Positions 22,587-59,794 of a stretch of DNA of 64,000 nt are shown here, piece after piece. Positions within the stretch are counted from its first letter, which is position 1; each line of letters starts with the position of its first letter. A program made the translations under genes and the position numbers. The notes below the pieces were generated by a model, which ran no database searches, had not been told where the DNA came from, and worked only from the letters and a program-made list of their open reading frames with translations. This DNA is from Candidatus Hydrogenedentota bacterium. GTDB taxonomy: Bacteria > Hydrogenedentota > Hydrogenedentia > Hydrogenedentales > JAJRTN01. The stretch spans positions 1 through 64,000 of the forward strand of contig JAJRTN010000116.1 in the NCBI GenBank assembly GCA_024278275.1. The letters are read 5' to 3'.

Positions 22587-25430
22587 TCAGGGCCGGGAGG
22601 GCCATGCCATGGGCGCGAAAGAATCCTCGGAGTACATGTCCCTGCCATATTCACCGGCGTTGTGAAACTGGAGCATCCGAAGCAGCTCACGGGTATCAAT
22701 CGTAAAGTCCTCCGGGGGGAAATCGGCGTGGTGCGGGAGACAGTCCCGGTTTTCGCCATCGGGTCGGTAGCCATCCTCGGAGCCGTTGCTGCAACCATAG
22801 CCCCGTGAGCGGAAAAGCTGCACGACGCGCAGGAGTTCGGACAGGGAAATCCGGCCATCATGGTCGAGATCCGCGGTGTGAAACTCGCCCCGTCCCGTGG
22901 GATCGGTGCCGGCCCAGATCTCCTCCAAATCCGATTGGCCGTCCCGGTCGGAGTCCCAATGTCTCGGGTGGGTACCGGCGGCCAGCTCAAAGATGTTGGT
23001 GAGACCATCGTCGTCGGGGTCGCCCAAAGCTCCTTCATCGCCTTCGCCGTCGGCGGGGTCCAGGCCGACGAACACCTCCACGTCGTCCGTTATGCCGTCC
23101 CGGTCGCTGTCCGTATTCCGGGGGTCGGTTCCCCTTTCAAACTCTTCAAGATTGTTCAGCCCGTCTCCATCCAGGTCGGCGTCGGGACCGTTGTTCCCCT
23201 CGCCGTCATAGGGGTCCAATCCGTATTCAAACTCCCAGCCGCCGGGCAATCCATCGCCATCCATGTCGTTTTCGAGCAGCGTGCAATCCGCCGCAGCGCT
23301 CAGATCGCTGGGTTCGAATCCCAGTGGTACGCCGGCACCGGGCGAAATCCCCGCAATCGACGCACCGGGAAGGGCATTTCGGTACACCACGCGGATCACG
23401 CCGTTGTAGTAGAGCCTGACCTGGAAGGTGTTGCCCGGCTTGCCTTCGTATTGGCCCGAACTGTCGAAATCCACCACGTCCTCGAAATCGATTGTAATAT
23501 ACTGATCGTTGCGTACGCAGGAAATGTTGCCTCGGGCGGTGGGATTCAGATCGCGGAAAAGCATGGAGATTCGGGGCTTTCCAAAATGGACCGCGGCCGT
23601 CGGTTCCCAACTGGTATCGGTGGATCCCAGGGTCAAGAAGCCGTTGCTGCCCACGTTGACTTCGCCATAAGGTACGCCAAAGAAGGGAAAGGTCTTCTCC
23701 GGAGGGAGGGAAACACCTTGGCTGTCATCATCCTGCAAGTCAAGCGTGAAGCCTTCCCCTTCGGATTCGAGACGGTCCGGCGCCGGATGGACGCACAGGG
23801 TGTAGCCTTGCCCGTCGGGCGTGGGCAGGAAGGAAAGCTCCAGCCCGTTCAGATCGACGTCCTCCGCGCCAAAAACCTCTGTCAGGTAGTCCACGCGTGT
23901 CCCGGTGGTAAAGGTGTAACACCGTCCCGAATTGTCTCGCGAAGCGGTATTGCCCGCAAGGTCGGTTGCTTCGATACGGAAGTAGTAGGTGGTCTGTTCC
24001 TCCAGGCCCGCGAGGTCGATGACATGCGCCGTAGCGGCCGGTCCCGTGGCGAAGGACACGGTCGATGCGCAATCCGTTCCAAAGAGCACGCGCCCCGTGG
24101 CGGTTTCGTCGGTCTCGAAGGTGATCCTGGCGGAGTGGCTCGTCACATCGCCCGACGCGACCCCGGAAATGGCGGGCGTGAAGCAATCGACGCCCACCGT
24201 GTCCGACACCATGCGGGACAACCCGCTGCCGTCGTTTTCATCCCGGTACTCGACCGTGACCAGGCTGGAAGCATTTACTTCGATCGTGCCGTTGCCGGGA
24301 TCGGCAACACCCACGTGGGCCGGAAAGTCGCCGGTAAACTCACCAGAACCCTGCATGGACTCAAAAAGATCAAAGGTTTCACGGTCACCTTCACTGGTAG
24401 TCACCGCAATGGTCACGGTCGGCGCGGAAGCCAGATCCAGGTCGCGCACCTGCACACGTCCCCACCCGTTGCAGCCGACGGCGTCCGACAGGAACTCGAC
24501 CGTGCCCTGGCGCGTGGTCAGTTCGGGCACCAGGTGGGCAAAAGCCGTCGCCTTGGTCACATCCTCGCCGCGCCCCTCGGTATCGGCGTGAACCTGCGAG
24601 CGGAAGCACCCGCCCACAATCGCGAAGTCGGTTGCGCCACGGACCAGTATCCCTTCCAGCGTGCCCGTCGCGGCGGCCAGCACGGGCGAACCCGAATTAC
24701 CGCCATAGGTATCCAGGTTGGCGACGAAGAAGCCCTCGGGGCTGCCGTCGCGGACGACCGTGGTATCGCCGAAGGCCAGCTTCATGGGAAGGCCGCTCGG
24801 GTGACCGATGACTCCCACGGCGGTCCCGTCGGCAATTACGCCCTGGCGCCGGACGCGAAGCGGGTCGAAGCCGGCGAGGGCGATGGGCCTATCCAGGCGG
24901 ACGAGCGTCCAATCGGCGGCGGTTTGGGTGTATTCGCGTCCCACCACTTCAATTCCGGCGTAGACCTGGTCGGCGGAGAAGTGGAGCACCGCCGTGTTCG
25001 CGTCCTCCATGACAAAGCCGAAAATAAAGCGCACGTTGTTCAAGCTGGATACATCGTAGCAATGCCCCGCCGTGGCAATCAGATCCTGCCCCACGGCAAA
25101 GCCGGAACAGAAAGGGGCCGTGGGCTGGGTGGCGAAGGGCTCATCCGCGCAGGGGCTGAAACCGGCGAAGCGGTAGGGCTGGGTGACGAGGGTGTAGCTG
25201 CCGTCGGGCTGCGCCTGGAGACTCCCGGCGGACACGAGCGCACAGGTCGCCTCGGCCCAGTGGCGGCGCCGGGGATCGCCCTCCTGGTAGACGTCAATGC
25301 GGTTGTCCGGGCCATAGATGACCTTTTCAGCGGCTTCGTCCCCTTTGGGCGCATCGGCAAAAACCCAGGGGGTGAACACGCACGAGACAAGAAAAAGCAA
25401 GTATAAGATACACCTGTAAGAACGGGCCAT
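22587..25430 (-). CDS. Secreted trypsin-like serine protease with TSP3 repeats and dockerin-like tail
   Basis: The 947-aa product has a signal peptide (residues 1-25). The chymotrypsin-fold triad is His123 (IATAGHC), Asp173 (AADWTLVRL) and Ser246 (GGNSGSP). After it come Ig/FnIII-like domains (about 420-505, ITFETDETATGRVLFG with TYYFRIEATD), a nidogen-like region (about 540-720, SNGFLTLGSTD), and thrombospondin-3 repeats at about 735-850 (DMDGDGLPGGW, DLDGDGLNNLEEF, DSDRDGITDD). Last is a paired EF-hand tail (about 856-930: DLDHDGRISLSELLRVVQLF ... CLPHHADFPPEDF ... ELLRMLQF). That tail is shared with the glycosidase at 56996. Likely surface-attached or complex-bound protease acting outside the cell. 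Confidence 0.87.
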   Translation of the reverse strand: MARSYRCILYLLFLVSCVFTPWVFADAPKGDEAAEKVIYGPDNRIDVYQEGDPRRRHWAEATCALVSAGSLQAQPDGSYTLVTQPYRFAGFSPCADEPFATQPTAPFCSGFAVGQDLIATAGHCYDVSSLNNVRFIFGFVMEDANTAVLHFSADQVYAGIEVVGREYTQTAADWTLVRLDRPIALAGFDPLRVRRQGVIADGTAVGVIGHPSGLPMKLAFGDTTVVRDGSPEGFFVANLDTYGGNSGSPVLAAATGTLEGILVRGATDFAIVGGCFRSQVHADTEGRGEDVTKATAFAHLVPELTTRQGTVEFLSDAVGCNGWGRVQVRDLDLASAPTVTIAVTTSEGDRETFDLFESMQGSGEFTGDFPAHVGVADPGNGTIEVNASSLVTVEYRDENDGSGLSRMVSDTVGVDCFTPAISGVASGDVTSHSARITFETDETATGRVLFGTDCASTVSFATGPAATAHVIDLAGLEEQTTYYFRIEATDLAGNTASRDNSGRCYTFTTGTRVDYLTEVFGAEDVDLNGLELSFLPTPDGQGYTLCVHPAPDRLESEGEGFTLDLQDDDSQGVSLPPEKTFPFFGVPYGEVNVGSNGFLTLGSTDTSWEPTAAVHFGKPRISMLFRDLNPTARGNISCVRNDQYITIDFEDVVDFDSSGQYEGKPGNTFQVRLYYNGVIRVVYRNALPGASIAGISPGAGVPLGFEPSDLSAAADCTLLENDMDGDGLPGGWEFEYGLDPYDGEGNNGPDADLDGDGLNNLEEFERGTDPRNTDSDRDGITDDVEVFVGLDPADGEGDEGALGDPDDDGLTNIFELAAGTHPRHWDSDRDGQSDLEEIWAGTDPTGRGEFHTADLDHDGRISLSELLRVVQLFRSRGYGCSNGSEDGYRPDGENRDCLPHHADFPPEDFTIDTRELLRMLQFHNAGEYGRDMYSEDSFAPMAWPSRP

Positions 25431-56995: not shown

Positions 56996-59794
56996 ATGCC
57001 GGGTGCCAGGTTGTTCTTGCCCGTTCTCCTTGTGTTTTCCCTGATCGGCCCGGCGGCCCATGGCGCGGCGCCGGTGGTGATGACCTTCGATTGCGATACG
57101 GAGGGTTTCACCATCCAGCAGGGCGACACCTTCGGGGGAACGCTTCGCCAGGAGAATGACGACGGCCACGGGAAACTCGTCATCACCCACAACGCGGCCC
57201 GCCAGGATCCGCTGGATTCCTCCGTGGACTACAGCCTTATCTCGCGCAACCTGGTGGTGTCCACCGCCGACTACGACCGGGTGGCCATGGGGATCACCAT
57301 CAACGGGGTTGCCGAAACCGACACCGTGCCTTTTGTCCTGGTTACCTATGTGGACGGCGACCTGATGTGGCTTCCGGACCAGCGGGTGCCCGGCGGCACG
57401 TCGGTCTTCCGCTTCAATCCCGGCACCAACGCCAACTGGGACGGCGGCAATACGAATATCCTCCGCTTCGACATCGCCCGGCTGGGGGAGCTTCCAGCCG
57501 GCTTCGACCACAGCCGGGTTTCCTACGAGATCGACTGGATAGCAGTCTACTCCAGCGCGGATAACCCCGGTTTCGTACCCGCCGAACAGGACACCCACCC
57601 CGAATGTCTTCCGGCGCCCGTGCCCGACACGCGGGGCATGACCGAGGCCGACGCGGTGGCCGCCCTGGGCGAGAAACACTTTGTCGCCGGTATCCGGCGG
57701 GTCCCTTCCGATGCCGTTCCCGAGGGACATGTCATCGCCCAACAACCCCCGGGAGGCGTGTTGGCCAAGGCCCGCAGCATCGTGGCGATCACCGTGTCGC
57801 AACCCTATCGTCAATACCGCGTGGCCGAGTTTGCCTTCACGGCGGCGCAGGACCACACCGGCACCGCCTCAACGCTTCAGTTCGATGTCCACTTCACGGA
57901 CCCGGAAGGGACCGTGTACGACGTGCCGGGCTTCTGGGACGGCGGCCTGGCGTGGAAGGCGCGGCTCAACCCGTTGACACCCGGCGACTGGACCTACACC
58001 ACCACCGCGCCGGGGGACGCCGGATTGAACGAACAGGCGGGCGCCTTCACGGTGTTGCCCGCGAATGGAGCGAATCCCCTTTACCGGCATGGCGGCGTCC
58101 TGCGCGTGAGTGACGACCATCGTTATCTCACCCACACGGATGGCACGCCCTTTTTCTGGCTCGGTGATACGTGGTGGTTCTGTCCGGGCACCCTCACGCC
58201 CTTGGGCGGCTCCTCCAACCCGGCCATCGATTCGGCCTTCAGGCATCTCATCGACCACCGCACGCAACAGGGTTTCTCCGTGGTGCAGATGGCCTTTCTC
58301 AGCTCCGGGGAAATGGTCAACCCCGACGCCGACCCGGACTACGGCCGTGAGATGGATTACTACATGGCCTACGCCAATGACGCCGGCATCGTTCCGGTGA
58401 TTGGCCTGACCTTTCACAGCGGCATGGACCAGAAAACGCTGGCGGAGTGGGAGAGGCGGTGGCGCTACGTTATCGCGCGGGTCGGGGCCTACGACGTGAC
58501 CTGGCTTATCACGGGCGAGTACAACGCGAACAACGGCCCCCTGGAGGAACGTATCCCCAAGGTGATGGCCCTGGGCCAGTTTATCAAGGACACCGATCCC
58601 TACCACCGCGCCATGACCGTACACCCCTGGGCCTTCAGCGTGGAAACGCGCGAGGCCTGGGATCAGCCGTGGTATGACTTCATCATGCTCCAGGGGGGGC
58701 ACGGCAACGGTCCGGGCGTGACCGGATACCAGCAGGCCCGGAACCACCTGCCCACCCGGCCCGTGCTTGAAGGGGAGTGCCGCTACGACCACATTCGGGG
58801 CTTCGACGCGGCCGATGTCCGCGAAGTGGCCTATCGCGCCTTGCAGGCCGGTTGCTTCGGCTACACCTACGGCGCCCACGGCATCTGGTATCCCACCCAG
58901 AACCGCGAGGACGACATGTTCTGGCACGACTGGGGCGTGTCGCCGCCCTGGTGGGAGGCGCTCCTTTATCCCGGCGGCGACCAGATGGGCTACCTCAAAG
59001 CACTCTATACCGCCCTCGAATGGTGGCGGCTCGAACCACGGCCCGACGCGGCATCGCACAGCGAGGTGCTCGTCACCGGCGACGGAACCCGGGTCCTGCT
59101 GGTTCATTTCCCGCGCGGGCTGGCTCCCTCCACCGCGGTGACGGTGCAGGGCGCGGCCGCGTCAAGCGTCTACCGGGCCACCTGGTTCGACCCGCGTACG
59201 GGGGCCTTCGCGCCGCTGGCGGAAGCCCTGACCAGCGTGGCGGGCACGCTGAACCTTCCCGCACGGGCGGACAGCCAGGACTGGATGCTCATCCTGCGGG
59301 ATCTCGATGAACCCGTCGAGGTCCCTGACGTCACCGGTTACCCCAGGACGGAAGCCGGGACGCGGCTGCGGGCCCGGGGACTTCTCGCGGAATACACCGG
59401 CTATGACGGCGGGGATGGTTTTGTCGCGGAACAGGATCCCGGCGCTGGAACCACGGTCTCTCCCGAGAGCACGGTGGTCCTCCATATGACGGAAGGCGAG
59501 GACGAACCGGCCGGATTCCACGAGGCCGACACGGACCGGAATGGCCGCCTCGACGTATCGGAAGTGCTCCGGGTCATCCAGCTTTACCAGTGGGGCGGTT
59601 TCCAATGCGCCGCCAACACGCTGGACGGCTACGGTCCCGGTTCGGGCGGCAGGGGCTGTCTGCCCCACACGGCGGACTACGCCCCGGAAGACTGGCGGTT
59701 GAGCTTGCCCGAGGTACTGCGGGTGGTGCAGCTTGCCAGTTTTGATGGGATTACGCCCTGCGCGAACGGCGAGGACGGATATTGTGGCCGGTAG
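56996..59794 (+). CDS. Secreted GH140-like enzyme with two PASTA domains and a dockerin-like tail
   Basis: The 932-aa protein has a signal peptide (1-23, cut after AHG), a CBM-like jelly roll (about 25-185), a first PASTA domain (about 210-268: MTEADAVAALGEKHFVAGI ... GHVIAQQPPGG), a DUF5060 beta domain (about 275-355), and the DUF4038/GH140 barrel (about 360-690: DGTPFFWLGDTWWF, QQGFSVVQMAFLS, VTWLITGEYNANNG, VLEGECRYDH). A second PASTA domain follows (about 775-838: VPDVTGYPRTEAGTRLRARGL), then the paired EF-hand tail (about 842-932: DTDRNGRLDVSEVLRVIQLY ... CLPHTADYAPEDW ... EVLRVVQL). Glu in ITGEY and LEGEC are candidate catalytic residues. Likely a cell-surface or complex-bound glycosidase. 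Confidence 0.87.
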   Translation: MPGARLFLPVLLVFSLIGPAAHGAAPVVMTFDCDTEGFTIQQGDTFGGTLRQENDDGHGKLVITHNAARQDPLDSSVDYSLISRNLVVSTADYDRVAMGITINGVAETDTVPFVLVTYVDGDLMWLPDQRVPGGTSVFRFNPGTNANWDGGNTNILRFDIARLGELPAGFDHSRVSYEIDWIAVYSSADNPGFVPAEQDTHPECLPAPVPDTRGMTEADAVAALGEKHFVAGIRRVPSDAVPEGHVIAQQPPGGVLAKARSIVAITVSQPYRQYRVAEFAFTAAQDHTGTASTLQFDVHFTDPEGTVYDVPGFWDGGLAWKARLNPLTPGDWTYTTTAPGDAGLNEQAGAFTVLPANGANPLYRHGGVLRVSDDHRYLTHTDGTPFFWLGDTWWFCPGTLTPLGGSSNPAIDSAFRHLIDHRTQQGFSVVQMAFLSSGEMVNPDADPDYGREMDYYMAYANDAGIVPVIGLTFHSGMDQKTLAEWERRWRYVIARVGAYDVTWLITGEYNANNGPLEERIPKVMALGQFIKDTDPYHRAMTVHPWAFSVETREAWDQPWYDFIMLQGGHGNGPGVTGYQQARNHLPTRPVLEGECRYDHIRGFDAADVREVAYRALQAGCFGYTYGAHGIWYPTQNREDDMFWHDWGVSPPWWEALLYPGGDQMGYLKALYTALEWWRLEPRPDAASHSEVLVTGDGTRVLLVHFPRGLAPSTAVTVQGAAASSVYRATWFDPRTGAFAPLAEALTSVAGTLNLPARADSQDWMLILRDLDEPVEVPDVTGYPRTEAGTRLRARGLLAEYTGYDGGDGFVAEQDPGAGTTVSPESTVVLHMTEGEDEPAGFHEADTDRNGRLDVSEVLRVIQLYQWGGFQCAANTLDGYGPGSGGRGCLPHTADYAPEDWRLSLPEVLRVVQLASFDGITPCANGEDGYCGR

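Follow-up and report, generated by a model that had tools for sequence, protein, structure and literature searches.

What is the roughly 90-residue module that closes a secreted apiosidase protein of a Candidatus Hydrogenedentota bacterium, and what could it do for the proteins that carry it? The module lies on the first 64,000 nucleotides of contig JAJRTN010000116.1 (assembly GCA_024278275.1), and this whole stretch is referred to here as the window. The open reading frame at 56996-59794 (+) begins with a signal peptide, contains DUF5060, a pair of PASTA domains (E 1.4e-21) and an apiosidase domain (PF13204, E 8.8e-53), and has the C-terminus HEADTDRNGRLDVSEVLRVIQLYQWGGFQCAANTLDGYGPGSGGRGCLPHTADYAPEDWRLSLPEVLRVVQLASFDGITPCANGEDGYCGR followed by the stop codon. 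The carriers and module copies of the window are as follows.

56996..59794, + strand: carrier gene 1, secreted PASTA - DUF5060 - apiosidase (GH140-like) - collagen_bind_2 - PASTA - module protein, 932 aa
59315..59482, + strand: PASTA domain directly before the module, from the domain search
59519..59791, + strand: dockerin-like module of 91 residues at the extreme C-terminus of the apiosidase protein
22587..25430, - strand: carrier gene 2, secreted trypsin-like protease, 947 aa (Trypsin_2, E 4.2e-14)
22611..22880, - strand: second module copy, at the protease C-terminus, without the second Cys pair (...YGRDMYSEDSFAPM)

An earlier note on this DNA had described the PASTA-GH140 enzyme as a second carrier of a module also present on the protease. 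This proved to be real, as the module at 59519, used as a lone query in a whole-genome search, retrieved the protease module at E 2.5e-18, so the likeness between the two window modules is not due to chance. The span of 59521-59791 given there was right at its end, and the actual start is two bases earlier, at 59519. No third copy was found within the window, and the host genome holds 16 copies at E<=1e-5. The trypsin-like protease is the most conserved module carrier of the phylum. On contig C114 of genome G000 (L018/L023) a module is split over two reading frames by a frameshift in either the gene or the assembly.

Module anatomy and predicted fold

The module consists of two tandem units of about 50 residues, each with a conserved loop predicted to bind Ca2+, a helix and a Cys-bearing beta-hairpin, which are located in the window copy as listed below.

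59519..59656, + strand: repeat 1 (HxADxDxDGxIxxSELLRVIQ...GFQC...DGYxPG), with Ca loop, helix 13-25 and hairpin
59528..59563, + strand: predicted Ca2+ loop 1, DTDRNGRLDVSE, a canonical 12-residue EF/F-hand loop
59606..59608, + strand: Cys30, predicted disulfide with Cys47, from the co-occurrence of Cys30 and Cys47
59657..59791, + strand: repeat 2, opening with the CLPH block (C47-H50), then loop 2 DYAPEDWRLSLPE, helix 63-73, hairpin, C81 and C89
59675..59713, + strand: predicted Ca2+ loop 2, DYAPEDWRLSLPE, 13 residues, one above canonical (DYxPxDWxI)
59759..59785, + strand: Cys81...Cys89, predicted second disulfide, in the repeat 2 hairpin, from the co-occurrence of Cys81 and Cys89

Residue counts were taken from an alignment of 139 distinct modules, a large share of which are the best 80 matches from public genomes, a sample that leans to consensus-like copies from few genomes, the query being itself a consensus-like module. 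The consensus of these 139 modules is H-S-A-D-x-[DN]-x-[DN]-x-x-I-x-L-S-E-L-L-R-V-I-Q-F-[FY]-N-S-x-G-Y-H-C-x4-E-D-G-Y-x-P-G-x-G-x3 in the first half and C-x-P-H-x-S-D-Y-x-P-x-D-W-x-I-x-L-S-E-L-L-R-x-I-Q-F-x-N-x-G-G-Y-H-x-C-x3-E-D-G-F-C-P-G in the second. All four ligands of loop 1 are kept in 132/139 modules, and the acidic or amide ligands of loop 2 (D...D/N...E) in 137/139.

The two units match each other by hhalign with P 99.9% and E 4.5e-31. Shifting the module against itself by 50 columns gives 51% identity, compared with 4-12% at other, neighbouring offsets, and the matched columns of repeats 1 and 2 are 64% identical, compared with 7% when shuffled. The earlier note had placed the Cys and CLPH block between two EF helices; however, the His of CLPH aligns with that of 'HxAD' in the first unit, which together with the similarity of the repeats makes the block the first residues of repeat 2, and an insert between EF helices is therefore ruled out. 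Two proteins of the host genome end in a single repeat, or half-module (L020:1501-1620 and L021:1501-1629), which suggests that one unit is able to stand alone.

The cysteines are gained and lost in pairs: Cys30 and Cys47 are both present in 137 modules and both missing from 2, and of the pair Cys81 and Cys89, 108 modules have both members, 30 have neither and 1 has a single one, counts whose formal significance is inflated by related sequences among the 139 modules. Repeated joint loss is the behaviour expected of disulfide pairs, and two disulfides are predicted on this ground. A C-terminal Cys free for lipidation or covalent attachment was considered and ruled out, since Cys81 and Cys89 come and go together and 30 modules lack both.

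An AlphaFold2 model of the module built with 96 sequences (pLDDT 96.5, pTM 0.86) contains a loop, helix 13-25 and a hairpin at 28-30/38-40, followed by a second loop, helix 63-73 and a hairpin at 78-80/88-90. Foldseek returned no significant match for this model in the PDB; the top, non-significant match was 4fl4_A (E 3.4, TM 0.33/0.42), from the entry of a dockerin-containing C. thermocellum cellulosome complex. A viral library gave no match, and neither did plasmid sequences. In Pfam, NCBIfam and PDB sequences nothing covers the module beyond single EF loops. The Dockerin_1 profile (PF00404) matched 0/96 modules at E<=0.001, with a faint match below the cut-off in a single carrier (E 0.034), and hhalign against dockerin profiles gave P 42% over 18 columns, one loop-helix only. 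EF-hand families (PF13202, PF13405, PF00036) matched 15-18/96 modules at E<0.001, and a full EF-hand pair was matched in only one of the 96; for the EF-type loop 1, Pfam matches range from sub-threshold to marginal. Because the Dockerin_1 profile and the dockerin fold comparison both failed, and the profile alignment was limited to one loop-helix, the module was not filed as a dockerin. The suggestion that it is undescribed agrees with the lack of a named domain for it in Pfam and NCBIfam, and no paper describing it was found in the literature searched. The module is an undescribed domain family at the centre of what is probably a known kind of device, the surface-docking tag.

Distribution and carriers in Hydrogenedentota

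The module is present in 41/68 Hydrogenedentota genomes searched, comprising 37/37 genomes outside families f4 and f5, 2/6 in f4 and 2/25 in f5, with from 1 to at least 151 copies (G021) per carrying genome. It is absent from the other approximately 318 relatives among the 386 genomes searched, and matches from public genomes are assigned to Candidatus Hydrogenedentota/Hydrogenedentes, one Candidatus Hydrogenedens and bins labelled 'uncultured bacterium'. Within the genomes searched, the module is confined to Hydrogenedentota. Classical type I dockerins number 9-63 per genome in eight f5 genomes and at most 8 in every genome of the other families, and the distributions of module and classical dockerin are complementary. 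Cohesins occur throughout the phylum at 0-8 per genome, with six cohesin domains in the host genome (G000:C135, C199 and others), and their copy number does not scale with that of the module; G008, for example, has 37-38 modules and one cohesin match, which is located on a module protein.

A signal-peptide-like N-terminus was found by a simple rule in 69/75 complete carriers, and their domains are of extracellular or surface type, including Ig-like, beta-helix, FG-GAP, LRR, InlB repeats, lactonase and peptidases. Of the 139 sampled modules, 127 finish no more than 15 residues before the stop, whereas the N-terminal region behind the signal peptide holds 5, another 5 are internal and 2 are cut; further modules directly after a signal peptide occur in L170 and L171. 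The question of whether the module is always C-terminal on secreted proteins, raised in the earlier note, is thus answered in favour of secretion and against a strictly C-terminal position. A 2213-residue protein (L090:1768-6636) bears four modules, some of them internal, and many carriers in L054-L132, L123 and L128 among them, have the module joined to the remainder of the protein by very long linkers of (GluGly)n type ('EGEGEG...').

Tail exchange and the cohesin/dockerin cluster

Orthologs of the window protease were verified by a catalytic domain of 50-60% identity, and those of six families carry the module as their tail. Two orthologs, L228 (G020) and L239 (G045), have a transmembrane (TM) segment and an Arg-rich tail in place of the module, and the protease L189 of G051 (f5) has a classical type I dockerin tail, with 52-56% identity over 267 aa (52% to the window protein). 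A carrier of approximately 2,000 residues likewise occurs with a module tail (L103, G015) and with a dockerin tail (L225, G018, f5), with 47% identity over 790 aa, and weaker homologous module/dockerin pairs are L104/L283, L096/L282, L116/L272 and L121/L252. Judged from these alignments, the module, the type I dockerin and the TM-Arg tail are interchangeable at one place on homologous proteins, and an economical reading of the three-way swap is that all three tails would retain the protein at the cell surface.

In a gene cluster conserved across the phylum, two dockerin-bearing genes (A and B) precede as many as three genes for small cohesin proteins (C, D and E). At L161:6575-10538, L175:3820-8619, L177:4692-8002, L179:1991-7134 and L183:3644-8144 the order is a small dockerin protein ending in '...ERYLFxLTPNAPP', a protein with dockerin and TSP3, and two to three cohesin proteins, and the cluster has the look of a surface assembly that is not cellulosomal. 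Nine copies of gene C carry the module as their tail (G002, G010, G006, G013, G019, G025, G021, one G015 copy and G047); by family, this tail is seen in f3, f7, f9 and part of f11. The gene C copies of G030, G031 and G065, and the second one of G015, have a TM-Arg tail. Gene E has a type I dockerin tail in G065, and most of its other copies have a TM tail. The tree of the short operon cohesin domains is poorly resolved, so position counts as much as phylogeny in assigning the operon genes. Foldseek confirms the cohesin fold of gene C (E 5.9e-12 to cohesins). In an AlphaFold2 model of a natural cohesin-module protein (pTM 0.58), the domains were not placed with confidence.

Anchoring scaffoldins combine a cohesin with a C-terminal TM-helix, and monovalent adaptor scaffoldins combine a cohesin with a dockerin (PMC11557425). 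Gene C resembles both in combining a cohesin with a TM tail or the module; it differs from an adaptor scaffoldin in that the dockerin half is replaced by the module, and a true dockerin is found on gene E of G065. At L178:2818-7836 (G021) the cohesin cluster adjoins genes that by eye resemble type II secretion or pseudopilin genes (prepilin-type N-termini, GspF-like). Outside the operon, f10 genomes (L162-L165) encode a conserved secreted protein of 264-289 aa with a degenerate cohesin-like domain and a module.

Proposed function and comparison with known systems

The module is likely to be a Ca2+-loaded, disulfide-stabilised, dockerin-like docking domain that retains its carriers on the cell surface. 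Its most likely role is that of a lineage-specific tag for docking secreted proteins to the cell surface, and it probably works like a dockerin though it stands outside the Dockerin_1 family. After export, the two tandem loop-helix-hairpin units would fold into a compact, pseudo-symmetric domain, with folding coinciding with Ca2+ binding and the oxidation of both Cys pairs; the two Ca2+ loops would present two helices, and a disulfide would lock each unit. The folded module would then bind a putative receptor exposed on the outside of the cell, and the carrier enzyme or adhesin would thereby remain on the cell and not diffuse away. Hydrogenedentota lineages would each pick one of three retention devices, namely the module, the type I dockerin or the C-terminal TM and Arg tail. 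We infer that the module binds Ca2+, forms the disulfides, holds its carriers at the surface and has a receptor. A receptor of cohesin type, from the conserved cohesin/dockerin operon, is a guess; cohesins come into consideration since the dockerin is what the module is swapped with and since the cohesin-module proteins resemble adaptor scaffoldins (PMC11557425). A broader proposal, advanced tentatively, is that the module defines a second, structurally distinct dockerin-like system, a phylum-wide non-cellulosomal surface assembly in which a disulfide-pinned double-F-hand tag replaces classical dockerins and recruits secreted proteins, up to 150 or more of them, to a receptor of its own that is tied to the cohesin/dockerin operon.

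The docking reading draws mainly on the tail swaps, together with the complementary distribution, the duplication, the Ca ligands, the Cys pairing, the fold, the placement at either end and the surface-type carriers; against it stand the independence of cohesin and module numbers, the weak dockerin profile match, a fold that is not significantly dockerin-like and the low-confidence domain placement in the cohesin-module model. The swaps are compatible with any mechanism of surface retention, and direct binding of an envelope polymer (S-layer glycan, capsule or peptidoglycan) in an SLH-like manner, with no protein-protein dock, would account for both the exchange with TM anchors and the missing correlation with cohesin numbers. 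Such binding is nevertheless considered unlikely, as the type I dockerin swap on homologs and the two predicted Ca loops speak for a protein dock. A divergent true type I dockerin, of the same family and binding the phylum's own cohesins, is a narrower form of the docking explanation, and the confidences given to the two therefore overlap. It would fit the swaps with dockerins, the likeness of the cohesin-module fusions to monovalent adaptor scaffoldins (PMC11557425) and the dockerin as best, non-significant, fold match; it is judged doubtful in view of the 0/96 Dockerin_1 matches at E 1e-3, the hhalign P of 42% over one loop-helix, and fold elements of another kind (hairpins, Cys pairs and a repeat of about 50 residues).

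The earlier note had suggested a sorting or docking module, and the secreted carriers and the dockerin and TM swaps agree with this. A C-terminal sorting or secretion signal, perhaps cleaved, that is read by export or processing machinery of its own (as for T9SS CTDs, PEP-CTERM/exosortase or rhombosortase) would explain the 127/139 copies near the stop and a large lineage-specific expansion of the kind seen in sorting tags, but is quite unlikely: N-terminal and internal copies favour docking over a processed C-terminal signal, and the module appears to be a rigid, probably disulfide-bridged fold and not a short motif plus TM. An exosortase tag is ruled out by the lack of a TM in the module, by the N-terminal copies and by the absence of exosortase from module-rich genomes (G021, G002, G010, f3, f7 and G047). 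As to a T9SS tag, SprA_N had no match in the 68 genomes, a weak result as the controls were also silent. A structural Ca2+-dependent cap or stability domain with no anchoring role would fit the stabilising nature of Ca loops and disulfides, but is improbable given that the module sits on unrelated domains, often via Glu-Gly-rich linkers, occurs on as many as 150 proteins per genome and can be exchanged for TM anchors and dockerins.

If the docking reading is right, a very large domain expansion in an uncultured phylum would be named and explained, and the surface proteome of Hydrogenedentota would become readable from sequence. The swaps with dockerins make the role of non-cellulosomal dockerins and cohesins directly testable, and the compact tag, predicted to be Ca2+-dependent and disulfide-stabilised (pLDDT 96 model), is a candidate for use as an orthogonal part in protein display.

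GC-type dockerin, PEP-CTERM and MYXO-CTERM tags are lineage-expanded and C-terminal, and occur in dozens of copies on unrelated secreted proteins. The module differs from them in occupying other positions too, in being a predicted folded domain and in not requiring exosortase. Loop 1 corresponds to the canonical 12-residue DxDxDGxIxxxE loop of the EF-hand superfamily, whereas the modelled unit is loop-helix-hairpin in place of helix-loop-helix. Compared with the type I dockerin (PF00404), the module has a longer repeat of about 50 residues, a Cys-bearing beta-hairpin behind each helix, a 13-residue loop 2 (DYxPxDWxI), conserved ELLRVIQ, EDGY and CxPH motifs, two predicted disulfides and no Pfam match. 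Both are nonetheless built of two tandem Ca-loop and helix units, both are mostly C-terminal on secreted proteins, and they replace each other on homologous proteins within the phylum.
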